Shown here piece after piece: positions 1 through 22,349 of a stretch of DNA of 25,160 nt. The notes under the pieces were generated by a model. It was not told the DNA's origin. It did not search any database and saw only the letters and a list, made by a program, of their open reading frames with translations. The position numbers were made by a program, and so were the translations under genes. The stretch lies in the IMG/VR virus record IMGVR_UViG_3300037502_001348, positions 1 to 25,160 of that record; one strand, 5' to 3'. The stretch comes from a virus. Each line of letters opens with the position of its first letter. The first letter of the stretch is position 1.

Positions 1-52
1 GCACATTTCTGCCGCCCGCGAGTTTTCGTCCAGACCTTTGGAGTACCCAAAT

Positions 53-544
53 ATGCGCGGACCGCAACGCAAACCAACAGAACATCTTGTAGCGTCAAAC
101 TCCGACCGCGGCATAGCCCGCGCAAAGACGCAGCCTAAACTTGGCTTTGCAATCCCATCGCCGCCACACTACCTATCCGAAATGGCGTTGAGCTATTGGC
201 CATACGTCGTATCCGTCATTGAACCGCTACACTGCACCACCGAAACCGACGCCATCCAGATGGGGTTAATGGCCGATGCACTAGGGACCATCGCGGAATG
301 TGACGCCCTGATAGCCCAACATGGCCGCGTGATGCCGACAAAGACCGGGTTCCTAGCGCAGAATCCAGCCATATCCCAACGGCAAGTGGCGGTAAAGCAG
401 CTCCAATCCGCGCTCGATAGGTGTGGACTTAACCCTGCCGCCCGCTCCAAAGTGGCGGAACTAGCCCCGAAGCTAGGCGAAATCATGCCGATTAATGCCG
501 AAAAGAAGAGCCGCTTTGCGGATGATGACGACGATGAAGACTGA
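53..544 (+). CDS. terS: terminase small subunit, P27 family
   Basis: This should be the DNA-recognition subunit of the packaging motor, which binds the phage genome and delivers it to the large subunit. The basic RKPTEHL stretch near the N-terminus and the C-terminal LNPAARSKV, the counterpart of the GLTPSSRSRL-type motif, are typical of P27-like small terminases. At 163 residues the length fits the family. I chose the ATG at 53 because GGAG at 40-43 lies 9 bases upstream. A TTG at 38 in the same frame would overlap that ribosome site. The protein ends in an acidic run (DDDDDED). The gene overlaps the large terminase, as usual for terS-terL pairs. Confidence 0.85.
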   Translation: MRGPQRKPTEHLVASNSDRGIARAKTQPKLGFAIPSPPHYLSEMALSYWPYVVSVIEPLHCTTETDAIQMGLMADALGTIAECDALIAQHGRVMPTKTGFLAQNPAISQRQVAVKQLQSALDRCGLNPAARSKVAELAPKLGEIMPINAEKKSRFADDDDDED

Positions 545-2243
545 TTCCGAGGTAAGTAAGCTATACAATATACCTCGAAAACTGGTTAAGCTGCTCCGGT
601 GCTTACCCAACTTTGACCCGTTTGCCCTGGCGCAGCCCGGTTACTACTTCGATTCCGAATACGCGGAGCAGGTGGTTGACCTATTTGAAACACACGTCAA
701 GCACCCTGAAGGCCCGCTTGTAGGTCAGCCGTGCCTACTATCCCCGTGGCAGATGAGCACCATACTCAACTTCTACGGATGGCGGAAGGCGGACGGCTCC
801 CGCCGCTTCCGTGAGTGTCTTATTTATGTAGGAAAGAAGCAGGGCAAAACCACGTTCGCCGCTGGGTGGATGATGATAGAACTAGCTTTCCTAGCCAAAG
901 CCGGCGCGCAATTCTACTCCGCCGCATCCAATCGCGAGCAGGCTGGACTAGCCTTCCAGTGCATCTGCAAGATGCGCCGTCACAGCGACGACCTAAAGAT
1001 CCTACTAAAAGTCTATGGTGAGAACGCGCCCGCAAGCCCTAAGTCTGTACTCCGCCCTGACATCATGGTGAGCTACAAGCCACTATCCAAGGACGCCGAT
1101 TCCGGTGATGGTGTATCTCCTGACTTCCTGCTGATTGACGAACTCCACCGCCACGCATCGCCAGAACTGGCGGAAGTGCTCATCAAGTCCACCGCCGCCA
1201 AGCCGGACGCAATTATAGTTAAGACTACCACCGCAGACTACGACCGTCCCAGCCTTTGCAATCGCGAGCTTGCCTACGCCCGCCAAGTCTGCGCCAACGA
1301 TGGCGACCCCAACAAACCAGGATTCGACCCCGCGTATCTTCCGGTGGTGTATGAGATAACCAACGCGGAATATAAGGCGGACCCTGAGTGCTGGAAGAAA
1401 CCCGACTACTGGCACAAAGCTAATCCCAATATCGGCATATCCGTGCCAGAAGAATTCTATGCCCGCGAGGCGCAGAAGTGTGGCGACGATATGACGCAGT
1501 TGAATAACTTTCTGCGGCTACACTTGAACATTGTCACTGAGCAATCCGAAGCATGGATTGACATGATGAAATACGACGATTGCGAAGCCGGTAGACCCGA
1601 CGATGAACTGCAAAGCCAAGAAGGCTACGGCGGATTCGACCTATCCAGCAACAACGACCTAACCTCATTCTGTATCGCATGGGCACACCCCGATGGCGGA
1701 TATGATTTGCGATGGTGGTTCTGGATACCCGACCATAAGATTGTGGAGAAGGAAAAGAAAGACAACGTTCCTTATCGCCAATGGGAACGCGAAGGACTGA
1801 TAGAACTTATCCCCGGCGAAGTGATTGATATAGAATACGTTAACGACCGCATCTTCAAGATTTGCGAAGAGTACAACGTTCGCCGCGTGGCTGCTGACCC
1901 GTGGAACAATTCATCGAGTATGCAATACCTCATGAATCGCGGCATGGAAGTAGAACGATTTGCGCAAGGCCCGGCAACTATCACCGAACCAGGTAAAGAA
2001 CTGGAACGCCGTGTGATTGAAGGAACCTTTCGCCACAACTACAACCATATAGCGCGATGGAATTTTAGCAACGCGATGATTAAGCACGCGCCAAATGAAA
2101 CATTCAAGCTAGACAAGAACGCGGCAGAGCGGCGCATTGACGGCGTTGCCGCTGCAATCATGGCGGTAGGTATGTGCATGAGATACTCGCAAGCGAACAT
2201 CTCAGCCTACGAATCAAACGAAGTTCTTTGCGGAGGATTCTAA
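495..2243 (+). CDS. terL: terminase large subunit (ATPase-nuclease)
   Basis: This is the packaging motor: an ATPase that pumps DNA into the prohead, plus a nuclease that cuts concatemers. From the ATG at 495, a Walker A-like GKKQGKT lies near residues 113-119 and a Walker B FLLIDE near 211-216, with KTTTA near 243-247 as the coupling motif. The RNase H-like nuclease half shows acidic residues in GFDLSS (D382), AADPW (D468) and RIDGVAA (D549). The 582-aa length is normal for HK97-type enzymes. The start is uncertain: ATGs at 522, 525 and 534 are in frame, and 534 would cut the overlap with terS from 50 to 11 bases. No start has a clear Shine-Dalgarno site. Confidence 0.95.
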   Translation: MPKRRAALRMMTTMKTDSEVSKLYNIPRKLVKLLRCLPNFDPFALAQPGYYFDSEYAEQVVDLFETHVKHPEGPLVGQPCLLSPWQMSTILNFYGWRKADGSRRFRECLIYVGKKQGKTTFAAGWMMIELAFLAKAGAQFYSAASNREQAGLAFQCICKMRRHSDDLKILLKVYGENAPASPKSVLRPDIMVSYKPLSKDADSGDGVSPDFLLIDELHRHASPELAEVLIKSTAAKPDAIIVKTTTADYDRPSLCNRELAYARQVCANDGDPNKPGFDPAYLPVVYEITNAEYKADPECWKKPDYWHKANPNIGISVPEEFYAREAQKCGDDMTQLNNFLRLHLNIVTEQSEAWIDMMKYDDCEAGRPDDELQSQEGYGGFDLSSNNDLTSFCIAWAHPDGGYDLRWWFWIPDHKIVEKEKKDNVPYRQWEREGLIELIPGEVIDIEYVNDRIFKICEEYNVRRVAADPWNNSSSMQYLMNRGMEVERFAQGPATITEPGKELERRVIEGTFRHNYNHIARWNFSNAMIKHAPNETFKLDKNAAERRIDGVAAAIMAVGMCMRYSQANISAYESNEVLCGGF

Positions 2244-2244
2244 A

Positions 2245-2427
2245 ATGAAGAAACACGCTAGCAGTATACTATTGATACTTATACACCTTCTATGCTATGT
2301 TAGCTTGGCCGTAGGGTGTGGAATGATATATCTGCCGCTGGCGCTGGTGGTGCCCGCGCTTCTACTTTGGCTTGACTTAGCTTTGGAGGCACACTATGCC
2401 CGGAATATTCAGCGCACTATTCAGTAG
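2245..2427 (+). CDS. small two-helix membrane protein between terL and portal
   Basis: This 60-residue protein of unknown function has two hydrophobic stretches (about residues 7-26 and 27-45) and then a charged tail. It could be an inner-membrane hairpin or a single long helix. GGAGG at 2232-2236, just inside the end of terL, lies 8 bases before the ATG. Its end overlaps the portal gene by 32 bases. Small hydrophobic genes are often found between terL and portal in HK97-like phages. The good ribosome site and tight packing support translation, but no role can be assigned. Confidence 0.7.
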   Translation: MKKHASSILLILIHLLCYVSLAVGCGMIYLPLALVVPALLLWLDLALEAHYARNIQRTIQ

Positions 2428-4078
2428 CAATCCAATCTATGACGAACGCTACTGGACCACCGGCGGCACAACCATAAGCAATACCACGGCGGGCGAGCTA
2501 GTCACAGACGATACCGTGCTAACATCATCCGCATGGTACGCCGCCCTGCGCAATATCTCCGAGGATATAGCCAAACTCCCCGCGTACGCCGTCCAGTATC
2601 AGGACGACATCAACAAGGTACGCAACGACGAGCATATCGTTACGTACCTATTCTACTACGCGCCAAACAGCTATCAGAATCCCATGACCTTCCGCGCGCA
2701 GATGCAGCATTGGAAGCACGGATGGGGTAACGCTTACGCCGAAATCGAACGCGATGCCAACATGAATCCAATCGCGCTACACCCCCGGCACCCCGGCACG
2801 ATTCAGCCCGAATGGGATAACGCCACCGGTAGGCTCAAATACAAGTGGTTGAAAAGCTACCGGTTCCAAGGTGGCAAGATGGTGGACAAGCACGAAGACT
2901 ACATCGACGCCGATAACATGTTCCACCTGCGCGGGCTGGGTAGCGACCCATTGCAGGGGTACAGTGTGATTCGCTATGCCGCGAATTCCCTATCCCTTAC
3001 CTTGGCGGCTGAGGCATTCGGCGCGTCCTCATTCAAGAATCGCGGCGCGGTGACTTCCATTTTGCGGCATCCCGCGAAACTCAACGACGCAGCCCGTAGC
3101 AAGTTCAAGGATTCATTCGACGCCGCATACCGTGGTGCGCGCAAGTCTGGCGGGTGGTTGCTTCTTGAGGACGGCATGGAATACCAACAGCTTTCCATCT
3201 CGCCCGACGATATGCAATTCCTTCAGACCCGGCAGTTGCAAATCGAGGAAGTGTGCCGATGGATACGTATCCCGCCGTCCAAGATTCAGCACTTGATGCG
3301 CGCCAACTACAACACTCTTGAGAACGAAAACCGCAACTACGTAACTGACTGTTTGCAGGGTGAAATCAAGGGATGGGAAGAAGAGGCACAGCGCAAGCTA
3401 TTCCGGCGCGACGAGCGCGACATGCGGCTGTACCACAACATGAATGCCCTACTTCGTGGCGACATCGCGGCACAGACGGACCACGTCGCCAAGATGATAG
3501 ACAAGGGTGTGTACTCCATCAACGAGGCTTTGCAATACATTGGCGGGAATACCATTGGCCCCATTGGGGACCAACGATTCGTTAACGCCAACCTTATGAG
3601 GCTCAAAGAGAATATGCTATTCCCCGCCGAAATCAAAGCCGCGACCCCGAGCCAATCCGCACCCATGACTACACCCGAGCCGCCCGACGTGGAAGACGAC
3701 GATATGGAAGAAACCACCACACAACTAGCAACGCCACACACTAACGACACCCCGACCACCCCGCGCATCACCCGCGAGCAGGCATGGTCTATCGTGTGGC
3801 CCGTGGTGGAGCGCGCAGAGCGCAAGGCGGAGAAGGCGGTGCCGCGCATAGAGAAGAAGCACGGCGAAGACGTGGAATCCTCATCCACCGCTATTGCCGA
3901 ATTCCATACCGAACTTCGCGCCGAAATCATTGTGAACCTTTGCGATACCTTCACCGCATTCGGTGGCGACGAAGAAACCCTAAAGCAAACCATCGCGCTC
4001 GATGCGCTCGATAACCCCACTGCCATAGACTATCAGGGCATCACGACCGCCCTAGTATCCCACTTAGTAGGAGACTAA
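2396..4078 (+). CDS. portal protein, HK97 family, with long C-terminal extension
   Basis: The portal is the dodecameric ring at the capsid vertex through which DNA enters and leaves. The N-terminal 420 residues follow the HK97 portal pattern: an early VLTSSAWYAALRNIS-like helix, the HLRG segment, and RWIRIPPSKI followed by NYNTLENENRNY near residues 284-312. At 560 residues it is longer than the usual 400-450. Residues from about 424 form an extra tail: a Pro/Thr/acidic linker with EDDDMEE, then a Lys/Glu-rich helical region. GGAGG at 2385-2389 supports the ATG at 2396. The S49 protease follows directly, as expected for head genes. Confidence 0.92.
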   Translation: MPGIFSALFSSNPIYDERYWTTGGTTISNTTAGELVTDDTVLTSSAWYAALRNISEDIAKLPAYAVQYQDDINKVRNDEHIVTYLFYYAPNSYQNPMTFRAQMQHWKHGWGNAYAEIERDANMNPIALHPRHPGTIQPEWDNATGRLKYKWLKSYRFQGGKMVDKHEDYIDADNMFHLRGLGSDPLQGYSVIRYAANSLSLTLAAEAFGASSFKNRGAVTSILRHPAKLNDAARSKFKDSFDAAYRGARKSGGWLLLEDGMEYQQLSISPDDMQFLQTRQLQIEEVCRWIRIPPSKIQHLMRANYNTLENENRNYVTDCLQGEIKGWEEEAQRKLFRRDERDMRLYHNMNALLRGDIAAQTDHVAKMIDKGVYSINEALQYIGGNTIGPIGDQRFVNANLMRLKENMLFPAEIKAATPSQSAPMTTPEPPDVEDDDMEETTTQLATPHTNDTPTTPRITREQAWSIVWPVVERAERKAEKAVPRIEKKHGEDVESSSTAIAEFHTELRAEIIVNLCDTFTAFGGDEETLKQTIALDALDNPTAIDYQGITTALVSHLVGD

Positions 4079-4081
4079 TAC

Positions 4082-4981
4082 ATGAACCACACCCCCCAAT
4101 GCTTCATGCACCATATGGGCGTTTACATGCTGGAGACGCGATTCGCGCAAAGCGTTAAGGCGAAGCTGGAAGCTAACCCTAATATTTTCCTGAGCGAGTT
4201 TGACCCAAAAGCCGCCTATCAGGAAATGCTCAACATGGAGCCGATTAGCGACCGGCGCGACCTGTACGGCATCACCGCGCAAGGCGTGGCGATTATCCCC
4301 GTGATTGGCGTCATGACGAAGGGCAGCAATAAGTTTGGAACCTCGACCAATCAAGCCCGGCGCGCACTTAGCCAAGCCACCAACGACCCTAGCGTCAAGG
4401 CTATCATGCTCCACTTTGATACCCCCGGCGGCAGCTTTGCCGGTAGCGACGAATTCGCCAATGATGTATACAAGGCCGCAAGCATCAAACCATTGGCCGC
4501 TCACGCCGATGACCTAGTAGCGAGTGCCGGTATGTACGTGGCGAGCCAAGCCCCGCGCCTTACCCTTAACCCGGCAGGCGAAGCGGGCAGTATTGGAACG
4601 TACACCGTGGTCTATGATTCCAGTGGCGCGGCGGAGATGCAGGGCGTCAAGGTTCACCTAATCACCACCGGCGCAAACAAGGGTGTAGGTGCGGATGGCG
4701 TGGCGATTAACGAGCCGCAGCTTGCCCGTATCCAATCCCTTGTAAATCAGGCTCAGACATTCTTCTCCACCGCGATTCAATTGGGCCGCAAGTTGTCTAA
4801 GTCTCAAGTAGATAGCCTTGTCTCCGACGGTGGTACCTGGTTCGCCAAGGATGCCAAGCAACTTGGACTAATCGACGCCGTGGAAAGCTATGACGTGGCA
4901 CTTGAAAAACTCACCGCGCGCATCCGCCCGAATAGCAAGTCAGGGCGCGCGCGACAGATTCAATTGCTCGAGTTAGAATAG
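4082..4981 (+). CDS. S49 (SppA-like) prohead maturation protease
   Basis: This serine protease probably matures the prohead by removing the capsid protein's N-terminal delta domain. It has the SppA fold signature: FDTPGG (112-117), then DDLVASAGMY with the likely nucleophile Ser148, and ITTGANKG with the likely general base Lys200. The 52-residue Ser-Lys spacing equals that of Bacillus SppA (Ser147/Lys199). Lambda gpC belongs to the same superfamily. Only about 40 residues follow the core, so no Nu3-like internal scaffold is evident, in line with the capsid protein having its own delta domain. AGGAG at 4069-4073 fixes the start. The start also lies 3 bases after the portal stop. Confidence 0.9.
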   Translation: MNHTPQCFMHHMGVYMLETRFAQSVKAKLEANPNIFLSEFDPKAAYQEMLNMEPISDRRDLYGITAQGVAIIPVIGVMTKGSNKFGTSTNQARRALSQATNDPSVKAIMLHFDTPGGSFAGSDEFANDVYKAASIKPLAAHADDLVASAGMYVASQAPRLTLNPAGEAGSIGTYTVVYDSSGAAEMQGVKVHLITTGANKGVGADGVAINEPQLARIQSLVNQAQTFFSTAIQLGRKLSKSQVDSLVSDGGTWFAKDAKQLGLIDAVESYDVALEKLTARIRPNSKSGRARQIQLLELE

Positions 4982-4983
4982 AC

Positions 4984-5012
4984 TTGACATTGTATTAGCG
5001 ATGGTATATACT
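4984..5012 (+). promoter_or_regulatory. consensus sigma70-type promoter before the capsid gene
   Basis: TTGACA at 4984-4989 and TATACT at 5007-5012 are separated by 17 bases, a near-perfect vegetative promoter. The start point would fall at about 5018-5020. The region is non-coding, right after the protease stop. Transcripts from it meet a strong terminator (5107-5159) before the capsid gene. Confidence 0.8.
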
Positions 5013-5018
5013 TGCCAA

Positions 5019-5159
5019 AGATAAGCGAACGGCGCGACTGCCGGGGCAAGTCTAAAGCAAACGACGATACAACTAAATCACGGAACTAAGCCGTTAAGCG
5101 AACTTGGCGTGCGAGGTTTGAGTGGGAAAATTCCCACTTGAGCTTTGCGCGCTTTTTTT
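5019..5159 (+). ncRNA. candidate about 140-nt leader RNA or small RNA
   Basis: This is the stretch from the predicted start point to the end of the terminator U-tract. It holds no credible ORF. It contains a small hairpin (CGGC 5030-5033 with GCCG 5040-5043) and two copies of TAAGCGAAC (5022-5030 and 5095-5103), and it ends in the 21-pair terminator stem. It may be a free small RNA or the attenuated leader of the capsid mRNA. The ends are inferred only from the promoter and terminator. Confidence 0.45.
5107..5159 (+). terminator. strong intrinsic terminator/attenuator upstream of the capsid gene
   Basis: Bases 5107-5127 pair without a break with 5132-5152 around a 4-base loop, giving a 21-pair stem that includes several G-U pairs. 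The stem is followed directly by seven T (5153-5159). The G-U pairs hold only in + strand RNA, so it acts on rightward transcription. The capsid ATG is only 29 bases beyond the U-tract and no promoter lies between, so capsid transcripts must cross this element. Confidence 0.85.
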
Positions 5160-5188
5160 GTTTTCCCGGCGAACTTGGAGAAACAACA

Positions 5189-6505
5189 ATGGACTATTTG
5201 ACGATGAGCTTGCAGGACCTTGGCAAGCACAAGGAAGAACTCGTTGCGAAGGCTAAGGCTCTCGACGCCAAGGCGGAACTGACCGAATCCGAAGATGCCG
5301 AATGTGAAAGCATCCTGAAGCAGGTTGAAAACATCAATGGCGTTATCGCCGCCCGCACGAAGCGCGACAACCGCTCTGCCAAGCTGGCGACCCTCGACAC
5401 CTCGACGGCTAACAACACCTTTGCGCCCGCGCCGGTGCAGGTGACCGACGTACGCGACCGCGTGCAGGACGACCCGAAGAAGGGTTTCAAGAACGAAACC
5501 GACTTCCTCAAGGCCGTCATGGTTGCGGGTATGACCGGCAAGCGCGCCGAGGGACTGAACTATCTGTCTGCCGCTGGTAGCGACGAACAGACCGGCAGCA
5601 ACGACCAGTATGGCGGGTTCACCGTCCCCGAGGGATTCCAGTCCGGTCTGCTTATGGTTGACCCCGAGCTGGACCCGATTACCGCGCTTTGCACCAACGT
5701 GCCGATGAGCACCCCGACCGTACATGTTAACGCCCGCGTGGACAAGAACCACTCGACGAGCGTTACCGGAGGGCTGCGCGTGTATCGCCGGTCCGAGACG
5801 GAAGATGTTGTATCCTCCCGCTTCTCGACCGAGCGCGTCACGCTCCAGGCTGATTCCATCATGGGCGTTGCGTACGCCACCGAGGAACTGCTTGCCGATT
5901 CTCCCATCACCTTTGCCAGCCTCTTCCGCCAGTTCTTCGGGCAGGAAATCGTTAGCACGCTCATCGACGAAACCATCAACGGTACCGGCGTTGGTAAGTT
6001 CGAGGGTATCCTTACGACCCCGAGCCTTATCACCGTGACCAAGGAAACCGGGCAGGCTGCGGATACTGTGCAGTTCGAGAACATCATCAAGATGTATGCT
6101 CGCCAGTGGTCCAAGGGCAACGCGATTTGGCTTGCCAATCACAACGTGCTCCCGGCCCTCATGAAGATGAATCAGTCTGTGGGCACCGCTGGCGTTCCGG
6201 CGTGGCAGCCGTCCGCCCGTGAAGGCGCGCCGAACCTGTTGCTTGGCCGCCCCATCTACTTCCACGAGGCCCTGCCCACCGTTGGCGACGCTGGCGACAT
6301 TATCTTCGCCGACTTCAGCCAGTACCTGCGTGGCAACCTTGGCGGTGAGACGTTCGCTGAATCCATTCACGTTCGCTTCCTCAACAACGAACGCGCCTTC
6401 CGCGTGGTTGCCCGCAACGCTGGCCGTTGCTGGTGGCGTTCGGCCCTTACGCCGAAGAATGGCGACACCCTCAGCCCGTTCGTTGCCCTTGGCGCGCGCG
6501 CGTAA
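5189..6505 (+). CDS. major capsid protein, HK97 fold, with N-terminal delta domain
   Basis: This protein builds the icosahedral shell. Residues 1 to about 70 are a charged, heptad-like helix (LGKHKEELVAKAKAL onward) typical of the HK97 delta domain, which acts as a fused scaffold and is cleaved by the prohead protease. The mature part starts near residue 95-105. It carries family features such as GGFTVPEGF, the YATEELLADSP helix, and C-terminal lines like LLGRPIYFHEALP and IIFADFSQY. The length is 438 aa. GGAG at 5177-5180 lies 8 bases before the ATG at 5189. A TTG at 5138 in the same frame lies inside the terminator hairpin and is not credible. Confidence 0.95.
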   Translation: MDYLTMSLQDLGKHKEELVAKAKALDAKAELTESEDAECESILKQVENINGVIAARTKRDNRSAKLATLDTSTANNTFAPAPVQVTDVRDRVQDDPKKGFKNETDFLKAVMVAGMTGKRAEGLNYLSAAGSDEQTGSNDQYGGFTVPEGFQSGLLMVDPELDPITALCTNVPMSTPTVHVNARVDKNHSTSVTGGLRVYRRSETEDVVSSRFSTERVTLQADSIMGVAYATEELLADSPITFASLFRQFFGQEIVSTLIDETINGTGVGKFEGILTTPSLITVTKETGQAADTVQFENIIKMYARQWSKGNAIWLANHNVLPALMKMNQSVGTAGVPAWQPSAREGAPNLLLGRPIYFHEALPTVGDAGDIIFADFSQYLRGNLGGETFAESIHVRFLNNERAFRVVARNAGRCWWRSALTPKNGDTLSPFVALGARA

Positions 6506-6535
6506 TCTGAAACACACAACTAGGAGATAACCACA

Positions 6536-7015
6536 ATGGCTGGTAGCACCCTCGATACCGAAGTAATCAAGAGCAAGTTCAAGATTAAGAACTACGACCA
6601 CGACCCCGGCGGCACGTCCGCTACCGTGTTGTCGCCCGATGGCGGCACCACCAAGTACGTGCAGGACATGCGCGACTTCTCCAACATCCTGTACCAGTCC
6701 ACGACCAGCGTGTCCGCCTCTTCTAGTGGCGTGACGAAGCTCGAAATCGTGGCCTACGAGGATTCCGCCGGCGCCGGCACCGCTTACGTGGTCAAGGACT
6801 CCGGCACCGTTGCGGCGGACGCTGTTGGCGACGAAGTCACCATCGAATGCAGCGCGTCCGAAATCGCGCAGATTGGCGCGGACAACGGCGTTGAGTTGCG
6901 TTACGTGACGGCGCGCCTGACCTGCTCCAACTCTGGCGACGAAGCCCGTGTGTGCATGGTAGCCAAGGCGAACCGCGCCTATGGCGACCTGACGCCCGAC
7001 ACCGTAATTGCCTAA
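6536..7015 (+). CDS. probable head accessory protein (unassigned)
   Basis: I do not recognise this 159-residue protein. It is rich in Ser, Thr, Ala, Gly and acidic residues, appears all-beta (alternating hydrophobic strands such as LEIVAYE, AYVVKD, VTIEC, LRYVTARLTC), and has no signal or membrane segment. AGGAG at 6522-6526 supports the start. Its place directly after the major capsid gene, and its high GC and codon use matching the capsid gene, suggest a virion protein made in quantity, for example a decoration protein. That role is inferred from position only. Confidence 0.75.
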   Translation: MAGSTLDTEVIKSKFKIKNYDHDPGGTSATVLSPDGGTTKYVQDMRDFSNILYQSTTSVSASSSGVTKLEIVAYEDSAGAGTAYVVKDSGTVAADAVGDEVTIECSASEIAQIGADNGVELRYVTARLTCSNSGDEARVCMVAKANRAYGDLTPDTVIA

Positions 7016-7032
7016 CCACTAACCAACGATTA

Positions 7033-7056
7033 GCCGGGCGGGGCAACTCGCCCGGC
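7033..7056 (+). other. intercistronic GC-rich hairpin
   Basis: GCCGGGCG (7033-7040) pairs perfectly with CGCCCGGC (7049-7056) around an 8-base loop. No T-run follows, and the Shine-Dalgarno site of the next gene starts 5 bases later. It is more likely an mRNA-stabilising or processing element than a full terminator. The same stem recurs at 21964-21990. Confidence 0.6.
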
Positions 7057-7073
7057 AATCTGGAGAATAACCA

Positions 7074-7838
7074 ATGAGCGAATACAACGCTTTCAAAGTG
7101 GAAGGGTTCACCTCCGCTAATGGCGTGGTGGGCACCCGCGAAACGACCTATGGCCTTGCCAATTCCGTTTGGCGTCACTTCCCCGTCAAGGAACTACTGC
7201 AAGACCCTGGTATCGGCAGTGTGTTGCGCGATGACTTCTTTGCCACCGACAACACCAATAACTACACCCTTGTCACCGATTCCGGCGGCACGGCGGTTAT
7301 TGCAGATGCCGAAGATGGCATTCTGAGAATCACCAACAACGGCACTGACAACGACGAATCCTATCTGTCTTCCAAGGCAGAAAGCTGGATTTTCAACGAC
7401 CGCCCGATTGCGTTTGAAGCTCAGGTGACTGCCACCGGCGACCACAACTTCATTCTCGGTCTGAGCGATACCGTAGGCGCAAACTTCCTTCAAGACTCCG
7501 AAGCTGGACCCGCTGCAAGCTACGATGGCGCGGTATTCTTTGTGGACGGCGGCGCGTACTGGAAGTTTGAGACGAGCAACGCTGGAACTCAAGTAACCAA
7601 TGCCACGTTCACCGGGTACACCTCCGCCGCGTCGATTCGTTTGGGATTCATCTATGACCCCAACGACGGCACTACCGGCAAGATTACGCCCTTCGTTAAT
7701 GGCGTTGCAGGCACGACCCATGACATTACCATTTCCGGCCTTGAGGAAATGCACGTTGTCTTTGGTGCAAAGAACAAGACCGCCGCAGCCGCGGTGCTCG
7801 ATGTGGACTACTTCCAGATTGCCAAGGTGCGCGCATAA
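7074..7838 (+). CDS. probable virion protein with jelly-roll (ConA-like) pattern
   Basis: This 254-residue protein shows the strand pattern of concanavalin A-like beta-sandwich domains: DDFFATDNTNNYT, ILRITNNG, PIAFEAQVTATGDHNFILGLSD, WKFETSNAG, IRLGFIYDPNDGTTGKITPFVNGV, and a final LDVDYFQIAKVRA. Such domains bind carbohydrate or serve as capsid decoration or tail appendages. The fold call is by eye and the ligand is unknown. TGGAG at 7061-7065 precedes the ATG, and the stop overlaps the next start (TAATG). Its position between capsid and connector genes favours a head-surface role. Confidence 0.75.
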   Translation: MSEYNAFKVEGFTSANGVVGTRETTYGLANSVWRHFPVKELLQDPGIGSVLRDDFFATDNTNNYTLVTDSGGTAVIADAEDGILRITNNGTDNDESYLSSKAESWIFNDRPIAFEAQVTATGDHNFILGLSDTVGANFLQDSEAGPAASYDGAVFFVDGGAYWKFETSNAGTQVTNATFTGYTSAASIRLGFIYDPNDGTTGKITPFVNGVAGTTHDITISGLEEMHVVFGAKNKTAAAAVLDVDYFQIAKVRA

Positions 7839-8281
7839 TGAGTGCCATACTTCAGACCACGCCCCGCCCGGTATTCTTGGCTACTGAACTGGTAGCGAGT
7901 GCCGCGCGTACGGCCACGGGCGTTAGTGATGCCGTGAGGCTCCCCGATGCGCCTAACGGGTATGGCTTTGTGTTCGATGTGTCCGCCGCCGCTACGGCTG
8001 CGGGCGATACGCTGGACATGAAGATTCAGACCAAGATTGACGGCACCAATTGGCTTGACGTGGTGGTCTTTACCCAAGTCCTGGGCAACGGTGGAGCCAA
8101 GCGATACATCGCTAAGGTATCCAGCAACGGTGCACAGACCATGTTTGAAAACGGTAGCGCACTAGCCGCTGGAAGCATCCGCAACCTGGTAGGCGACGAA
8201 TGGCGTTGTGCATGGTCTATCACTGACGCAACCACCGATGACGCGAGCTTTACGTTCAGCGTCACCGCGATGCCGATGTAA
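7838..8281 (+). CDS. small structural protein, beta-rich (unassigned)
   Basis: This 147-residue protein starts in a TAATG overlap with the preceding jelly-roll gene and ends in another with the connector gene, so the three are probably co-translated. The sequence alternates strands and turns (YGFVFDVSAAATAAGDTLDMKIQTKIDGTNWLD, then EWRCAWSITDATTDDASFTFSV). Similar small beta proteins occur in phage head modules, but I cannot name a family. A head decoration or stabilising role is possible and inferred from context only. Confidence 0.7.
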   Translation: MSAILQTTPRPVFLATELVASAARTATGVSDAVRLPDAPNGYGFVFDVSAAATAAGDTLDMKIQTKIDGTNWLDVVVFTQVLGNGGAKRYIAKVSSNGAQTMFENGSALAAGSIRNLVGDEWRCAWSITDATTDDASFTFSVTAMPM

Positions 8282-8868
8282 TGATTAAGGTAGAAGTCAC
8301 TAGCGCACCATCCGTTGATCCGCTGACCGTGGCCGAGGCCAAGGCGCATTTGCGCGTTGACCACACGACCGATGATAGCTACATCGAAAGTTTAATCAAG
8401 GCGGCACGAGTCACTTGCGAAAACTTCCAGAATCGCGCGTATATCACCCAAACGCGCAAGCTATACCTTGATGACTTCCCTGGCGTTAACTGCCCGATAG
8501 AGTTGCCATTCGCCCCACTGCAAAGCGTATCCAGCCTCACCTACGTTGACACAGACGGCACGACGCAGACATGGGCGACTAGCAACTATCAGGTAGACAC
8601 CAAAGCGCAACCCGGTACGGTGGAGCCTGTGGACGGTGTGACCTATCCATTGGTCTACCCTAACAAGCGCAACGCCGTAATCATTACCTACATTTGCGGA
8701 TATGGCGCAACGAGCGCAAGCGTACCAGAATCCGCGCGACACGCCATGCGGTTACTTATTAGCGATTGGTACAACCAGCGCGAAGACACCGTGATTGGCA
8801 ACATTGTGAACAGTCTACCAATGGGCGTAGAAGCCCTACTGTGGCAAGACAGAATATACACATTCTAG
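8281..8868 (+). CDS. head-tail connector, HK97 gp6 / phiE125 gp8-like
   Basis: This is a connector ring protein that docks under the portal. The N-terminal LTVAEAKAHLRVDHTTDDSY followed by IESLIKAARVTCENF is the hallmark of the gp6-like adaptor family. The middle carries the PFAPLQSVSSLTYVD block, and the C-terminal helix ESARHAMRLLISDWYNQRE is also typical. The 195-aa length fits. The start overlaps the upstream stop (TAATG). Next come an unknown small gene and the head-tail adaptor, the usual neck-gene order. One of the five GATC sites in the window is here (8317-8320). Confidence 0.88.
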   Translation: MIKVEVTSAPSVDPLTVAEAKAHLRVDHTTDDSYIESLIKAARVTCENFQNRAYITQTRKLYLDDFPGVNCPIELPFAPLQSVSSLTYVDTDGTTQTWATSNYQVDTKAQPGTVEPVDGVTYPLVYPNKRNAVIITYICGYGATSASVPESARHAMRLLISDWYNQREDTVIGNIVNSLPMGVEALLWQDRIYTF

Positions 8869-8877
8869 GAGAGAGAG

Positions 8878-9177
8878 ATGAGCAAGAAGAAGGTTAAGGT
8901 ACTAAAGGCGGTAACCCCCCCCGGCTTTCAGTACACCGCCTTGGAAACCATCAACGGAATCCCAGTGAAGGTAATCAAATACAACATCTGCAAGCCCGGC
9001 GATGTAATCGAGATTGACGCCACGCTTGCCGATGGCTACGAGAAATCCGGCATTGCGGTGCCAGCTTCCTCATTGGATAAAGTAACCAAAGTCGCCGAAA
9101 ACGGAGAATTCAGAAATGCCGAGAGCCGGACTGAAAAACAGAATTCTGTATCTCCAGAAGCCAACGACAAGCATTAG
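8878..9177 (+). CDS. small neck-region protein (unknown)
   Basis: This 99-residue protein has a lysine-rich start (MSKKKVKVLK) and a compact beta-like core with KPGDVIEID. AGGAGAG just before the ATG is a strong ribosome site. Codons 13-15 sit in a run of eight C (8915-8922), a possible slippage or sequencing-error site. The last 62 bases overlap the next gene, so the polar C-terminus is encoded out of frame with the adaptor's start. Its position among neck genes suggests a virion or assembly role. I recognise no family. Confidence 0.65.
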   Translation: MSKKKVKVLKAVTPPGFQYTALETINGIPVKVIKYNICKPGDVIEIDATLADGYEKSGIAVPASSLDKVTKVAENGEFRNAESRTEKQNSVSPEANDKH

Positions 9178-9661
9178 CACCGCGAGCGGTGACCCAACGA
9201 TTACATGGACGAACGTAGGCTTTGTATATGCCGAAGTGATTCCAATATCGGGTAGTGAGACAGTTGAAGACGGACAGAATAGTGCGATGATGAAATATAA
9301 GGTTCGCGTCAACTACCGGCCCGACATTACCACCGAGCGGCGATTCCTGATAGACGGATTCCCCGGCCAACTCAACGGTGCAGTCACAACCGGAACGACA
9401 ATCACCGTAGACGATTCCTCCTTTGCGCTATTCCCGCAGACACGGCGCGTGCGGGCACTACGAATCGACGACGAGCTTATGACCATATCATCCATTAGCG
9501 GCAACACGATTACCGTAGCGCGCGCGCAGTTTGGAACCGCACAAGCTAATCACGCGGACGATTCAAAAGTGATTCTGTGCAGACAGTTGAATATATCCAG
9601 TGTGTACGACCCTACCGGGCGCAAGCAAGATTTAGTTTGCGAATGCGTTGAGGTGGCGTAA
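9116..9661 (+). CDS. head-tail adaptor (SPP1 gp16 / head-tail joining family) with insertion
   Basis: This is a neck protein joining the connector to the tail. The start (GLKNRILYLQKP), TNVGFVYAEVIPISGSETVE, RVNYRPDI and the end (RQLNISSVYDPTGRKQDLVCECVEVA) match the small family that is usually about 110 residues long. Here residues of about 80-155 form an insertion with strands TTITVDDSSF, LRIDDELMTISSISGNTITV and the motif ARAQFGTAQANHA. CGGAGA at 9103-9108, inside the previous gene, supports the ATG at 9116. The gene ends in a TAATG overlap with the next one. Confidence 0.82.
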   Translation: MPRAGLKNRILYLQKPTTSISTASGDPTITWTNVGFVYAEVIPISGSETVEDGQNSAMMKYKVRVNYRPDITTERRFLIDGFPGQLNGAVTTGTTITVDDSSFALFPQTRRVRALRIDDELMTISSISGNTITVARAQFGTAQANHADDSKVILCRQLNISSVYDPTGRKQDLVCECVEVA

Positions 9662-10242
9662 TGGCGATAATCGAGAAGTTCAAACTAGACGGTGCGCTGG
9701 AATTGTATAACGCACTAAAGGAAATGGAAAAAGAAACACAAGTTTCTATTCTTCGACGTTCCGCTAGACGTGCCATGATTCCAATGCGTGATGCAATTGC
9801 AATAAATATTGCCATGAAGCTAGACAATATGAATGCACGATCAAGAGCAATCTATTCTCGACAGATTCAGCTGCGCACAAAGTTTGACAAGAAAAAAGGT
9901 AGCATAAACGTATTTGTAATGCCTAACGTTAAGAGCATGCAAAACGAAGAAAAGAAGCGTGCATGGAACGAAGCTATTTCGGGCATTGGAAACGAGTATA
10001 AGCCTCACACGTTTACTAACTTTGCATACTTGGCGCACTTCTTTGAAACAGGTGTAAAACCGCACGTTATAAAGATTAAGCGGAAGCGTGCGAATGTTAG
10101 GCTTAGGCACCCAGGATTTAAGGGTATGCCGATATTCCAAGATACATTCAAAGCTAAAGCAAACGATGCCGCCACACGGTTTATAACGGAAGTTGGCAAG
10201 ACACTAGCAAGAGAATTTAAGAAGAGAAACAAAGGCAAGTAA
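9661..10242 (+). CDS. HK97 gp10-like tail completion protein, AT-rich
   Basis: This should be a neck or tail-completion protein needed to finish or attach the tail. The helical, basic N-terminus (LELYNALKEMEKETQVSILRRSARRAM), the YLAHFFETG segment and the C-terminal RHPGFKGMPIFQDTF (counterpart of the hPG..a.PFl motif) fit the HK97 gp10 family. It has 193 residues. Base composition differs from its neighbours: a sample at 9781-9840 has 23 G+C of 60. It also holds a GATC site (9839-9842). Both are compatible with a separate origin. It starts and ends in TAATG overlaps. Confidence 0.8.
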   Translation: MAIIEKFKLDGALELYNALKEMEKETQVSILRRSARRAMIPMRDAIAINIAMKLDNMNARSRAIYSRQIQLRTKFDKKKGSINVFVMPNVKSMQNEEKKRAWNEAISGIGNEYKPHTFTNFAYLAHFFETGVKPHVIKIKRKRANVRLRHPGFKGMPIFQDTFKAKANDAATRFITEVGKTLAREFKKRNKGK

Positions 10243-10685
10243 TGGCATTTCTTCACCCAGAATTTGCAATCCGCAAACTGCTACGCGATGCCGCTGCGGT
10301 GGTTGCTGCGAACAACGCCGATAACACGGTGTGTTCCATCGACGCCGTTCCGCGCAATGTGGTGATGCCCTTTGTAACGTATCAGCGCATACAGGCCACC
10401 ACGAATCACCACATGGGCGGCGTGGTGTCCAGCAATTTAATGATGGGAACGACGGAAGTATCGGCCTTTGCCGAAAGCTATGAGGCAGCAATGACATTGG
10501 CGGACGCAATCCGCGCAACACTCGACGGCGCGGAAATAGTAACGGTGACGGTGGCGGGCAATTCAGCAACCTTTGAGCGGCTCCACCTGAACCGCGAAGA
10601 TGTAGACATAACGGAACCATCAGACGCGAGCGACAGCCGCGTTGTAACAGTAACACAAGAATACGAGTGGTCTGCTAGACCATAA
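10242..10685 (+). CDS. tail terminator/completion protein, DUF3168-like
   Basis: This protein probably forms the ring that stops tail-tube growth and mates with the head. Matching family features are the N-terminal helix PEFAIRKLLRD, the MPFVTYQRI strand, the TEVSAFAESYEAAMTLADAIRATLDG helix (the typical V..fs.....a..la..vr..L pattern), and the C-terminal SRVVTVTQEYEW strand. It has 147 residues. Gene order (connector, adaptor, gp10-like, this, tube) is as in many siphoviruses. The start overlaps the preceding stop, with AAAGG upstream. Confidence 0.8.
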   Translation: MAFLHPEFAIRKLLRDAAAVVAANNADNTVCSIDAVPRNVVMPFVTYQRIQATTNHHMGGVVSSNLMMGTTEVSAFAESYEAAMTLADAIRATLDGAEIVTVTVAGNSATFERLHLNREDVDITEPSDASDSRVVTVTQEYEWSARP

Positions 10686-10702
10686 CAGAAAGGTAGGTCA
10701 CT

Positions 10703-11098
10703 ATGGCCGGAACAGCAGTAGACGGAACCGGAGCAACCGTGACGTTTGGCACGTCCACGTTTGCCGGACAGCTTATTGACATTGATTGGGGTGGCCGCAC
10801 CCGCGATGCACTGAAAAGCACGCACATGGGAACGACCGGCAGCCATACGTACATTCCTGCGGACCTTGTTGACGGTGGCGAACTGAGCTTGACCGCTTAT
10901 TTCAACTGCACAGATGCGACGGCTACCCTGCTTGGCGCGGCGGCTGAAACCGTCACCGTGGCATGGAACACCGGCGTCTCGTGGGCAGCGTCCATGTTCT
11001 GCACCGAGATTGGCGCATCCGCCAAGATTGGCGAGACGATGCAGCAGACCCTTAAGTTCAAAGTCACCGGCGCAATTACAGAGGACACCACCCCCTAA
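10703..11098 (+). CDS. major tail tube protein
   Basis: This protein would polymerise into the tail tube. The 131-residue sequence is beta-rich and small for a tube subunit. It has GTSTFAGQLIDIDWGGRTRDALKSTHMGTTGSHTYIPADLVDGGELSLTAYF-type segments (an early specification strand, then the Ala-Leu-Lys-Ser helix) that resemble the phage tail tube fold. Its position just before the frameshifted chaperone pair and tape measure is the standard place for the tube gene. AAAGGTAGG at 10689-10697 supports the start. A TAATG overlap couples it to the chaperone gene. Confidence 0.8.
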   Translation: MAGTAVDGTGATVTFGTSTFAGQLIDIDWGGRTRDALKSTHMGTTGSHTYIPADLVDGGELSLTAYFNCTDATATLLGAAAETVTVAWNTGVSWAASMFCTEIGASAKIGETMQQTLKFKVTGAITEDTTP

Positions 11099-11472
11099 TG
11101 GACATCCGAGCCAAGATTCTATCGATGGACGACCGCAAGACTGAAGTGGTCCACGTGCCGGAATGGGGAGTAGACGTTTACGTCTGCACCCTGACGGCGC
11201 GCGATAAGACTGCACTCCAAAAGCATATCCTCAAGTACGAGGAACTGCCCGACGATTACTTCGCGCGAATCGTGTACATGTGCGCCTGCGACGAATCCGG
11301 CGTCCGCATCTTCACCGAAAAGGATATTGCGGAATTGCAAGATAAGTCTGCTACGGCAGTATCACGAATTGCGGAAGTGGCGATGAGTCTATCCAAGATG
11401 AACGAATCTCCCGAGGCACTAGCGGAAAAAAACTCCGAGACGAACCAGGATGGCTCGCCAAGCACCGACTAG
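11098..11472 (+). CDS. tail assembly chaperone, short form (gpG-like)
   Basis: This is the first frame of the tail assembly chaperone, which coats the tape measure during tail building and is absent from virions. It has 124 residues, is mostly helical (LTARDKTALQKHILKYEELPDDYFARIVYMC; DIAELQDKSATAVSRIAEVAMSLS) and has a polar C-terminus. A slippery A AAA AAC at 11427-11433 near its end moves a fraction of ribosomes to the -1 frame. Position between the tube and tape measure genes is diagnostic. Family resemblance in sequence is weak, so the call rests on context plus the frameshift. Confidence 0.85.
   Translation: MDIRAKILSMDDRKTEVVHVPEWGVDVYVCTLTARDKTALQKHILKYEELPDDYFARIVYMCACDESGVRIFTEKDIAELQDKSATAVSRIAEVAMSLSKMNESPEALAEKNSETNQDGSPSTD
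11427..11433 (+). promoter_or_regulatory. -1 programmed frameshift site A AAA AAC
   Basis: The heptamer fits X XXY YYZ exactly in the chaperone frame (codons AAA and AAC at 11428-11433). GAGG at 11413-11416 lies 10 bases upstream, the distance at which Shine-Dalgarno-like stimulators act in dnaX. A weak downstream hairpin (CGAG with CTCG) is possible. The -1 frame is open across the site and encodes the conserved T-domain. Confidence 0.85.
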
Positions 11473-11777
11473 CCCTCGCGCTTGGAAAGCCCCTATCAGA
11501 AATCGAATCCATGCCTGCCGATGAGTTTGCTGATTGGCAGGCATATTTTCAGGTAGAGCCGTGGGGCACCCATGCTATGGAGACTATCATGGCGCAAGTT
11601 TGCCAAGCCGTGATAGCGACTAGCGGCAACCGCCCGCCCGACATGGCAGAGCTAATGCCGTTTTCGTCGTATCGAAATAAGATACTAGGCCCGCGCAAGT
11701 TGACCGGCGAAGAACTGTATCAGAAAGCAATGGCGGGCATAGGCGGCAATATAAGGATTACGAGCAATGGCGGATAA
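11433..11777 (+). CDS. tail assembly chaperone, -1 frameshift extension (gpGT-like C-terminus)
   Basis: This is the second part of a fusion read as residues 1-112 of the preceding gene plus 114 residues from here, 226 aa in total. After the slip the frame reads LRDEPGWLAKHRLALALGKP and continues without a stop to 11777. It matches the T-domain pattern in which WLAKHRLALALG-type and MPADEFADWQAYF segments precede EPWG. The internal ATG at 11511 has no Shine-Dalgarno site, and starting there would lose the conserved 26 residues, so it is probably not used alone. The end overlaps the tape measure start by 11 bases. Confidence 0.85.
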   Translation, partial: LRDEPGWLAKHRLALALGKPLSEIESMPADEFADWQAYFQVEPWGTHAMETIMAQVCQAVIATSGNRPPDMAELMPFSSYRNKILGPRKLTGEELYQKAMAGIGGNIRITSNGG

Positions 11778-13473
11778 GAGAACACTAACAGTATCCATGC
11801 GCGCGGAAGTGGCGCATCTCCGCAAGGGTATCAACGAGTCTGTTGGACTCATGAAGAGTTTGCAGAAGTCCAGCATGACCACCGCCAACGTGCTCAAGAG
11901 CGCCTTTGCCGCCGGGGCTACCATGTTTGCGTTTCACCAAATTCAAAACGGCATACGAAACACCGTTACCGCATTTGGCGAAACCGCAACTATGATTGAA
12001 AACACGAAGCACCTTAGCGAAGTGTTGGGTAGTACCACCGAAGAGATACAGGTGTTACAGCGCGCCGCGTCATTTGCGGAAGTTGACGTTGATATGCTGA
12101 ACCGTAACATCAAGATTATGACGAAGAATCTAGGCGCGGCGTCTATGGGATTGGGTACCGCCGGAGATGGACTGTCCGCTTTGGGTATCGACGTTCAGAC
12201 CCTTATCCGCCTTCCTTTGTTGCAGCAAATCGAGATGATTAGTGGCGGGATGAATAAGCTAGGCACGTCTGCCCAGAAAGCCGCCATTGCACAACAGATA
12301 TTCGGACGTGGCGGAATGGAGATGATTCCATTCCTTGCTGCGGGTGGCGAAGCGTTGACCGAGCTACAATCCGAAATGGAGATAACCGGCGAACTTTTTT
12401 CAAACTTTGAAGCCGCCGCCGTTGATGAAATGGGAGACTCAATGGGAAAACTTCGCGGCATATTCCAAGCGTTCAAAAATCAATTAGTGATACAACTTGC
12501 ACCCGCCGTTCAGTACATTACAGAGCTAATGCAAAACTTTGCCAAGTCATTCGGTGGCGCGCGCCCGCTAATGACCCGCGCAATTGAGTACGCTGTAAAT
12601 GGAATGGCAAAGCTAGTTGATGGCGCACAGATGCTTTACGGCATGTGGTTCAAGATAAAGGGTGTTGTGCTCTCCGTTGCCGCTGGCGTATCAAAAACGT
12701 TTGGCGTATTGGGTAGTATAATTGGTGGTATTATCACTGGAGACCTTACACAACTTAAAAACGTGTTTGGTATGATAGCTAGTGGTTTCAAGTTGGGGCT
12801 GCTTGAAGCAATCAATGCACTAGCTAAAGGTTTAGACTTTGTACTTAGTAAGTTGGGAATGGATACTGGTGTATCAAAATTCACCGAAGGAATGATAAAC
12901 GAAACTAAGTTTCAAATGTCTTTGCTTGGCTCAATGATTGGACAAGGTGCATTCGGCCAAGAGTTTACAAATTCTCTTTCTAAGTCTGCTGGTGATGCTT
13001 TTAGTAAAGCGGCCGAACTATCCGGCGGTACTGGATGGGGTGAAACGTTCAAGTCCAAATGGGCGGAGATGATGGGCGGCGGTGTTGGTGGTGGCGTGGA
13101 TATTGAAAAGGCAATCATCGAAGAAACGATGGACATACTTCCGCCACTTGAAAAGGAAAAGGCACTCCGCGAACAAATAGCCGACACGATGAAAGATACC
13201 GCAGACTTCGCCAAGGAAATCAAAGACTTTGGCGAGGGTACGTCCTACCGCACCGGCGAATACTCCCCCCGCGTAGGTGGCGTATCTGGTGGCGTTACCG
13301 GAATGATGGGCACAGATGCCGCTGGCGTGTCTGCGGCGGCTGTGGCTGCGACTTCGCAGTCCAACACCCGTACCGGTGCAGACCAAAATACAACGCTATT
13401 ACAGGGCATCCTAGAAGCAACCCGAATGACGGCCAGCAACACCATGCGCGCGCCGGTAGCAGTGATGGGATAA
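11767..13473 (+). CDS. tape measure protein
   Basis: This protein sets tail length and leaves the tail ahead of the DNA. It has 568 residues. The N-terminal MRAEVAHLRKGINESVGLMKSL, the block LSEVLGSTTEEIQVLQRAASFAEVD, and the LGTSAQKAAIAQQIFGRGGMEMIPFLAAGGEAL segment are typical of tape measures. A Gly/Ile/Val-rich hydrophobic region at about 298-325 may enter the membrane during injection. The C-terminus is Gly/Ala-rich and low in complexity. At about 1.5 angstrom per residue the tail would be near 85 nm. The middle part (about 12690-13010) is clearly more AT-rich than the ends. Confidence 0.92.
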   Translation: MADKRTLTVSMRAEVAHLRKGINESVGLMKSLQKSSMTTANVLKSAFAAGATMFAFHQIQNGIRNTVTAFGETATMIENTKHLSEVLGSTTEEIQVLQRAASFAEVDVDMLNRNIKIMTKNLGAASMGLGTAGDGLSALGIDVQTLIRLPLLQQIEMISGGMNKLGTSAQKAAIAQQIFGRGGMEMIPFLAAGGEALTELQSEMEITGELFSNFEAAAVDEMGDSMGKLRGIFQAFKNQLVIQLAPAVQYITELMQNFAKSFGGARPLMTRAIEYAVNGMAKLVDGAQMLYGMWFKIKGVVLSVAAGVSKTFGVLGSIIGGIITGDLTQLKNVFGMIASGFKLGLLEAINALAKGLDFVLSKLGMDTGVSKFTEGMINETKFQMSLLGSMIGQGAFGQEFTNSLSKSAGDAFSKAAELSGGTGWGETFKSKWAEMMGGGVGGGVDIEKAIIEETMDILPPLEKEKALREQIADTMKDTADFAKEIKDFGEGTSYRTGEYSPRVGGVSGGVTGMMGTDAAGVSAAAVAATSQSNTRTGADQNTTLLQGILEATRMTASNTMRAPVAVMG

Positions 13474-13476
13474 AAC

Positions 13477-14295
13477 ATGGCAGCAAGCGTAATCATTGAC
13501 TGGAAAGACGGCGGCGCAAGGTTTGTCGAGCAAGACGGCGCGGCGATGGAATTCATCCGCACCTGCTTTGTCACCGGGCTAAGCGCGGGCAGTGGCAGCG
13601 GCACCCTAACATCGCGCATCCTTGAGGCTAAGACCGCGCTAGACTCCGCCGGATTTGCCATTGGTGACACTACTACCATGGACGCCAATCTCCGAGTATC
13701 GTCGCGTGATATTGCGATGCACCCCGAAGATAATTCCAAGGTTATCGCGACCATCAACTACAAGGCGTTCAAGGACACGATACCGCCATTGGGAAGTTGG
13801 CTACCAAAGTTGAGCGGAAGCCTGAATCAGATACAGACAGCCAAAGACCTAAACGGATTCCCGATTACGGTATCACACACATTCCCCGATGAAGACCCTA
13901 ACTGGCACGGGCAGACTGTCGAGCAAGGCGCGAAGGTGAACCAGTTCAGGCCGCTTGCCGAAATTACCTACGTTGGGTTGCTCAAGGTTTCGTCTATCTT
14001 TAACACAAAGATAAAGTACCTGGGCAAGACCAATTCAGCGACTTGGAACTATGGCGGGCCGGGCCGGTGGCTGTGTACCAACTTCACGGCGGAACTGTTT
14101 GACAAGGGAACCACGCCCGATACCTGGTTATGCGAAGTCACCTTTCAGGCGGACGGGTTCCTGTGGACGCAAACGGCGGTATTCGTTGACCCCGCGACCG
14201 GCAAAGAGCCGGAAGGACTGGTTAGCGGCGTGGGCATCAAGAACATTGTTACCCAATTTGGCGTAGACTTTAACGAACTGATACCATCTAGTTAA
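13477..14295 (+). CDS. tail protein after the tape measure (distal tail candidate)
   Basis: I do not recognise this 272-residue protein. It is soluble, mixed alpha/beta, with motifs such as HTFPDEDPNWHG, FNTKIKYLGKTNSATWNYGGPGRW and LCEVTFQADGFLWTQ. The spot directly after the tape measure is where distal-tail or minor tail proteins usually lie, so a role at the tail tip is plausible, but this is inferred from position. It starts 3 bases after the tape measure stop with only GGGA upstream. Composition matches the surrounding structural genes. Confidence 0.75.
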   Translation: MAASVIIDWKDGGARFVEQDGAAMEFIRTCFVTGLSAGSGSGTLTSRILEAKTALDSAGFAIGDTTTMDANLRVSSRDIAMHPEDNSKVIATINYKAFKDTIPPLGSWLPKLSGSLNQIQTAKDLNGFPITVSHTFPDEDPNWHGQTVEQGAKVNQFRPLAEITYVGLLKVSSIFNTKIKYLGKTNSATWNYGGPGRWLCTNFTAELFDKGTTPDTWLCEVTFQADGFLWTQTAVFVDPATGKEPEGLVSGVGIKNIVTQFGVDFNELIPSS

Positions 14296-14304
14296 GAGGT
14301 AGAT

Positions 14305-14865
14305 ATGGGCGTAGGTAAGACATACAGTCCAGCAAGGCCGGGCCAGCCGCTACGCGCGCGCGATGTTAACAACAATATCGTGCGCGCCCCCATGCGCGGG
14401 CAGACCGTGAGCGGCGGCGGCAACAGCAAGCGGCTATTCCCCGATGGCGTTGCTGTGGACCTTCCCGATAGCGGGAGTGTTGCAGGCGCGTCCAACTACA
14501 TTAAATGGGCGGAGGTGCAAAGCGTTGGTGAAGATACGTTGACCGTCAAGGTTTACAATCCAGTCACCAATACAGTTACCGGTGAATCGTTCGACGTGGC
14601 AAAGCCGTATCTCTTGCAGCAGTCAACATTCGATGGTGTTACGGTGGCTTATATAGATGGTGAATCTATCACCTACACCAAAGACGCGACAGACCCTGAA
14701 TACAAACGCAACCACGATAACGGCGTTTCATCTGAGGACTTTATCGTAACTCCAAACTGGTTTGTGGGTGAGCAGATAATAATCATGAAGATGCCGGTCT
14801 ACATAAACAACAAACTTTATAACTGGATAGAGTTGGCTATGGGCCGTTATTGGGCGACATCATAA
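14305..14865 (+). CDS. tail-region structural protein (unknown)
   Basis: This 186-residue protein has a basic, Pro/Gly-rich N-terminus (SPARPGQPLRARDVN) and then a likely beta domain (AEVQSVGEDTLTVKVYNPVTNTV; VTVAYIDGESITYT). The N-terminus resembles attachment segments of phage fibre proteins, but I cannot name a family. AGAGGTAG right after the previous stop serves as ribosome site. The stop overlaps the next ATG (TAATG). AT content rises over its last third, leading into the AT-rich gene that follows. Confidence 0.7.
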   Translation: MGVGKTYSPARPGQPLRARDVNNNIVRAPMRGQTVSGGGNSKRLFPDGVAVDLPDSGSVAGASNYIKWAEVQSVGEDTLTVKVYNPVTNTVTGESFDVAKPYLLQQSTFDGVTVAYIDGESITYTKDATDPEYKRNHDNGVSSEDFIVTPNWFVGEQIIIMKMPVYINNKLYNWIELAMGRYWATS

Positions 14866-22256: not shown

Positions 22257-22293
22257 AAGCGTTTACCCTCACCCGGTAAACGCTTATTTTTTT
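22257..22293 (+). terminator. intrinsic terminator closing the late region
   Basis: AAGCGTTTACC (22257-22267) pairs perfectly with GGTAAACGCTT (22275-22285) over a 7-base loop, followed by ATTTTTTT. It is a textbook rightward terminator and separates the lysis region from the next promoter, which starts two bases later. Confidence 0.92.
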
Positions 22294-22294
22294 G

Positions 22295-22349
22295 TTGACA
22301 CGCTATACGCCATGTAGTATATTTAAGCCGTGGCCAGCAAGGGGCTGGC
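22295..22349 (+). promoter_or_regulatory. consensus promoter with stem-loop leader, copy 1
   Basis: TTGACA (22295-22300) and TATATT (22318-22323) are 17 bases apart, a near-consensus sigma70-type promoter. The leader begins with a hairpin, GCCAGC (22333-22338) with GCTGGC (22344-22349) and loop AAGGG. The 13-mer CAGCAAGGGGCTG within it recurs after the promoter at 24739. Confidence 0.85.

Follow-up and report, generated by a model that had tools for sequence, protein, structure and literature searches.

Why should the gene for the most abundant protein of a virion be transcribed through a strong terminator? The question is raised by a locus in the 25,160-nt stretch of viral DNA analyzed here (the window), in which an earlier note, made from the letters alone, had pointed to a promoter TTGACA-17-TATACT firing into a long hairpin just ahead of the major capsid gene.

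Promoter, leader and terminator ahead of the capsid gene

Both the promoter and the hairpin with its T7 run were found as described (Table 1). Among the 17 promoter matches in positions 1-20000, where shuffled sequences lead one to expect 16.3, the site at 4984-5012 ranked first, and its RNA would be expected to start at about 5018-5020. A scan of the same 20 kb for hairpins of more than 8 pairs returned only the one at 5107-5152. Together with the U run directly after it, this stable hairpin has the composition of an intrinsic terminator (5107-5159). Its stem had been called perfect over 21 pairs; the length stands, with 22 pairs, but about six of these are G-U and the arms are 73% Watson-Crick complementary, so the stem is perfect only if G-U pairs are allowed. 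The spacing of 29 nt between the T run, which ends at 5159, and the capsid ATG at 5189 proved correct, and the promoter scan showed no promoter between the terminator and this ATG, as had been claimed. The 141-nt RNA from 5019 to 5159 folded with -52 kcal/mol (z = -3.7), a stability matched by none of the shuffles.

Table 1. Positions of the leader elements and associated features in the window.
Feature	Position	Strand	Details
sigma70-type promoter TTGACA-17-TATACT	4984..5012	+	-35 at 4984-4989, -10 at 5007-5012; 11/12 consensus matches
5' interrupted hairpin	5019..5053	+	P1 (AGAU/GUCU), short inner stem, H1 (CGGC-GCGACU-GCCG); from folding
A-rich linker	5054..5078	+	apparently unpaired (folding); beyond A-richness without conservation
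H2 hairpin (ACGG-AACUAAG-CCGU) then UAAGCGAACUU	5080..5105	+	most conserved box; 3' end flush with terminator stem
Giant intrinsic terminator	5106..5159	+	22 to 23 pairs, 4-nt loop, T7; stem to 5152, T7 at 5153-5159
Major capsid protein, HK97 fold	5189..6505	+	first gene past the gate; Phage_capsid PF05065, E 4e-34
Strong terminator AAGCGTTTACC..GGTAAACGCTT, and 10 nt on promoter TTGACA-17-TATATT (22295)	22257..22323	+	terminator with 11 pairs and T7; from scan

A GCGAAC(UUGG) sequence occurs three times in the window leader: at its 5' end (at 5025, within 5022-5030), at the terminator foot (at 5098, within 5095-5103) and overlapping the capsid Shine-Dalgarno sequence (5169-5180). The extra copies are not conserved among the relatives and were seen in the window only. 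In a sister set of leaders, described below, bulged-A hairpins stand at the corresponding three places.

Genes for the terminase, the portal and an S49 head protease lie upstream of the leader, and head-tail and tail genes lie downstream of it. Between 5.2 and 21.9 kb the scan of the window returned neither a further strong terminator nor a promoter that exceeds background. A promoter-like site is found at 21895, ahead of the terminator at 22257, and the region 22257-22323 apparently marks the end of the gated structural operon and the start of another unit. Since neither kind of signal was seen again before about 21.9-22.3 kb, transcripts of the structural genes must cross the 5107-5159 hairpin, whether they start at this promoter or further upstream, and the terminator would act as a gate for all of the structural operon and not for the capsid gene alone.

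Conservation of the leader among relatives

Close relatives of the window capsid protein were found in metagenomic viruses only. The nearest by capsid identity, L002 (73%), L187 (59%), L112 and L188 (57%) and L004 (53%), all carry the element at the same place. The promoter, the 5' hairpin, H2 with an AAGnGAACUU box, and the terminator are common to five divergent capsid leaders from IMG/VR (those of the window, L002, L004, L188/L112 and L187). A promoter like that of the window stands at the same position in L002, L004 and L187, and L188 has a weaker version (TTGCAT/TATATT). Thus promoter and stem, whose lack in relatives had been named beforehand as counting against the proposal, are both conserved. 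H2 and the AAGnGAACUU box are nearly invariant among the five leaders and lie flush against the terminator. Mean pairwise identity among the five distinct leaders was 0.88 in the GCCGTTAAGCGAACTT box versus 0.39 in the spacer between -35 and -10, so the conserved letters are in the transcribed RNA, outside the promoter spacer.

On folding, the 5' end of each of the five leaders formed an interrupted hairpin starting at about the transcript start. P1 keeps its pairing despite base changes in four leaders and the pairs of H1 vary in part, while at the terminator foot 10 base pairs are kept in 5/5 leaders with the sequence varying at 9 of the 10. H2 has the same stem in all five leaders and so gains no support from covariation; its pairing is argued only from its position and the variation in loop length. 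A GGTTTrGG-like run is kept in the middle of the 5' arm of the terminator stem in the window, L002, L004 and L188, and the remainder drifts; given this run, the terminator sequence may carry information beyond pairing.

A covariance model trained on the leaders of the window, L002 and L004 recovered, at E 8e-12, that of L112, which had not been used in training; no other match in the 576 kb searched was convincing. The box ACGGA-N4..9-CCGTTAAGnGAACTT gave five matches in all IMG/VR. Four of them lie ahead of a capsid match. The fifth, in L026, belongs to a leader near-identical to that of L004, on a contig that breaks off shortly after the same capsid gene has begun. The 14-mer pattern CGTTAAGCGAACTT gave 71 matches, and those outside known capsid leaders were treated as chance and not inspected singly. 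The window-group pattern had no match in genome_contigs. Cultured phages showed no DNA match to the 2.5-kb region used as query, and their nearest capsid relatives (Caulobacter TMCBR2, Bradyrhizobium ppBdUSDA122-1 and Streptomyces Dagobah) have no room for such a leader because their protease-capsid gap is about 3-100 nt.

The distribution of conserved letters bears on a processive antitermination of the lambda Q, AlpA or GafZ type, in which a factor would bind the promoter DNA and ride the polymerase, the leader RNA being incidental. The layout is indeed like that of lambdoid pR'-tR' (PMC6606751) and the logic like the GafZ control of a capsid cluster (PMC11150451). However, the -35/-10 spacer, where Q and GafZ elements have their site, is unconserved while the RNA is conserved, and no conserved Q-type site was found in it. 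Moreover, the Q protein families PF06530 and PF03589 were found in 0/11 contigs, mostly fragments, and such a factor would leave the repeated RNA hairpins of the sister set unexplained. We therefore regard loading at the promoter as unlikely.

In a wider clade we looked for the layout itself, defined as a promoter and, 60-280 nt downstream of it, a hairpin of <= -20 kcal/mol with a T run. It was found in 22 of the 80 non-redundant capsid leaders of this clade, with a median distance of 162 nt from -35 to T run (range 128-218), and in none of the antisense strands, the two neighbouring upstream stretches, the intragenic capsid and post-capsid sequences or 400 shuffles. About half of the capsid leaders of the clade are without a recognizable terminator. 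Since the terminator sequences are largely unrelated between groups, it is the layout that is conserved rather than the letters. Some other capsid leaders have repeated motifs of their own: L225 has GGCCAAGGCGyC twice, L212 has three copies of GGATCGGGT and a variant of it, and L178, a Planctomycetota MAG contig, has several copies of GGCCGTGCCC, of which L177 has a variant. Their sequences suggest further leader types. The capsid relatives L174-L178 from genome_contigs lie in MAGs labelled Chloroflexi, Chitinivibrionales, BRC1 and Planctomycetota, a hint to hosts of the wider clade and not to the host of the window.

A sister set of leaders with bulged-A hairpins

The repeated motif CACGCyrCGGCGG occurred, in 1.24 Mb of fetched DNA, only ahead of capsid genes. 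This motif of the sister set is a hairpin: a lower stem is followed by a single A that bulges out of the 5' strand, by three pairs and by a loop of 3-4 nt of free sequence. A scan for this shape without fixed letters gave 35 hairpins versus 2.3 in shuffles, and bulges of C, G or U were at background. For the A-CGC-loop-GCG cores the summed length of the lower stem was 172, and re-dealing the flanks among loci 2000 times dropped it to a mean of 92 with a maximum of 123, so the lower stem covaries.

The copies are placed near the 5' end of the transcript, across the terminator foot and at the stem that holds the Shine-Dalgarno sequence. At the terminator foot, the terminator stem begins with the 3' strand of the hairpin, and because this strand is common to both, hairpin and terminator are mutually exclusive. 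Used as a pattern on IMG/VR, this terminator-overlapping copy preceded a capsid gene in 9/9 contigs, the capsid N-terminus of L270 reaching the contig end. The Shine-Dalgarno-side motif gave 8 matches, of which 3 were chance ones outside capsid leaders. Pairing of the Shine-Dalgarno sequence was stronger and commoner in the sister set than in other leaders (P 0.0015, uncorrected for base composition or relatedness). Four leaders of the set (L105, L134, L204 and L215) are devoid of the terminator and retain the 5' hairpin and the Shine-Dalgarno stem. In L105:2160-2325 and L134:2830-2995, both terminator-less, the Shine-Dalgarno sequence GGAGGG is wholly inside a CCCTCCACG..CATGGAGGG stem. The N-terminus of the capsid protein was considered as an RNA binder: lysine and arginine residues among its first 20 numbered 5.1 in the sister set, against 2.4 in the window group and 3.8 for other leaders. 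Relatedness is uncontrolled in these figures, and we draw no claim from them. The shape scan found no bulged-A hairpins in the window's own group; what the window group and the sister set have in common is therefore layout and place, and not a demonstrated homology.

The terminator-less leaders weigh on another explanation, the free small RNA of the earlier note, by which the locus would be a stand-alone gene for a trans-acting RNA of about 140 nt that merely lies ahead of the capsid gene. Its own promoter, its own terminator, its tight length and its conserved fold would suit such a gene, but the element is always directly 5' of the capsid gene, and the capsid operon would need another promoter where the scan shows none. 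Furthermore, since the members without a terminator keep their hairpins, one of them tied to the Shine-Dalgarno sequence, cis control of the capsid gene is favoured over a free small RNA, to which we now give little credence.

A putative attenuator and its likeness to known systems

We lean towards the view that the leader acts in cis as an attenuator, a gate to the structural operon that is opened by a putative RNA-reading factor. Transcription from the strong host-type promoter would produce a leader of 140 nt and stop by default at the unusually long intrinsic terminator. The conserved RNA element in between, made of the 5' interrupted hairpin, the linker, and H2 with the AAGnGAACUU box at the terminator foot, would be read in trans by a factor, for which a late phage protein or a recruited host protein is the likeliest candidate, and the polymerase would then pass. 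Read-through would turn on the capsid gene and roughly 17 kb of downstream genes. In the sister set the reading site could be the bulged-A hairpin whose 3' strand doubles as the 5' foot of the terminator, and in the window a factor on the box would occupy the mouth of the RNA exit channel as the terminator nucleates.

In our best reading the antiterminator logic follows from the overlap in the sister set, and in the window it would hold by analogy. The conserved box of the window group abuts the terminator rather than overlapping it (about 2 nt at most), so support for a mutually exclusive antiterminator is confined to the sister set. Of the three readings first offered for this locus, attenuated or antiterminated late transcription has the best support: the conserved parts are transcribed, they are flush with the base of the terminator or overlap it, and they are repeated at the Shine-Dalgarno stem of the sister set. 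From the parts, their conservation, covariation and position we infer that termination is regulated, that a factor of the kind named above exists and that it acts by activation. More tentatively, an RNA-binding protein of phage or host origin, conceivably the capsid protein itself or an assembly partner, might recognize the repeated bulged-A hairpins in the sister set or, in the window group, the H1/H2 box, and so couple late antitermination and, in part of the family, the access of ribosomes to the state of capsid production; these capsid leaders would then hold a so far undescribed class of phage RNA regulators.

Intrinsic termination is rarely complete, and leaky termination would suffice if the stem served as an insulator against upstream read-through or, cut by RNase III, as a protector of the 5' end of the capsid mRNA, the third of the readings first offered. 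Stems of 20-30 pairs, which far exceed what an intrinsic terminator needs, would fit such a role; yet the promoter sits before the terminator and not after it, and the H2 box and the bulged-A hairpins over the terminator base would go unexplained, which makes this role very improbable. We consider it hardly probable, too, that a nascent 5' hairpin modifies the polymerase in cis without any protein, as HK022 put does, for although the RNA is structured from its very 5' end like putL (PMC9378689) and no protein candidate was found, constitutive read-through would leave a terminator of 20-30 pairs without a reason to be kept, and put, with about 70 nt and two stem-loops, has no Rfam-detectable likeness to the window leader.

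If the attenuator reading is true, the switch from early to structural genes in many uncultured HK97-type phages would be gated by an undescribed RNA element at the gene of their most abundant virion protein. The conserved hairpins would then mark the binding site of the factor, and both factor and mechanism could be searched for and tested in a cell-free system.

Several known systems resemble parts of this arrangement. In ANTAR/EutV leaders two hairpins precede the terminator and the second one overlaps it (PMC3369936). Like the leaders of EutV, NasR and AmiR, those of the sister set have two small hairpins before an intrinsic terminator, and the 3' strand of the second is also part of the terminator foot. 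It differs in its mark, a bulged A with a variable loop of 3-4 nt, in a third copy at the Shine-Dalgarno sequence and in its place in a phage capsid operon. The ANTAR dual motif (hexaloops with A1 and G4) was found in 0/31 leaders, and a search for ANTAR proteins gave no match in 11 contigs, mostly fragments, a search in which the control also gave no match. An antiterminator hairpin that excludes the terminator, as in the sister set, is also the principle of the RAT sites of BglG, SacY and LicT, but RAT consists of one hairpin that contains two asymmetric internal loops, and CAT_RBD proteins were found in 0/11 contigs (mostly fragments) with positive controls that worked. The operator hairpins of the MS2 and PP7 coat proteins have a bulged A on the 5' side, a short upper stem and a small loop. 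The sister-set hairpin, which lies in a capsid-tied leader, has the same form, a likeness of shape only; the capsid here has the HK97 fold and the window group is without such a hairpin.

The gene transfer agent cluster of Caulobacter controlled by GafYZ also has a termination gate in a capsid-encoding cluster that is opened by an antiterminator, but there the terminator is made up of three 150-bp repeats that follow the first gene, and promoter DNA is the putative site (PMC11150451). HK022 put, too, is a structured nascent RNA, made directly downstream of a phage promoter; it differs in needing no terminator of its own, in serving early operons and in having two adjacent stem-loops (PMC9378689). 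Lambda-type pR'-tR' with Q has the same succession of strong promoter, short leader RNA, terminator and late genes behind it, whereas the gate in the window precedes the capsid gene and not the head of the late region (PMC6606751). The earlier statement that no element of this form had been described holds for Rfam, with no match in the window at the gathering threshold, none to E 5 in 4900-5250 and none in 20 relatives, and for the literature searched, in which no description of such a capsid leader was found; it does not extend to the layout, which is that of lambda-type pR'-tR'. We judge the leader to represent a conserved and undescribed family of leader RNAs with a mechanism of a known kind.
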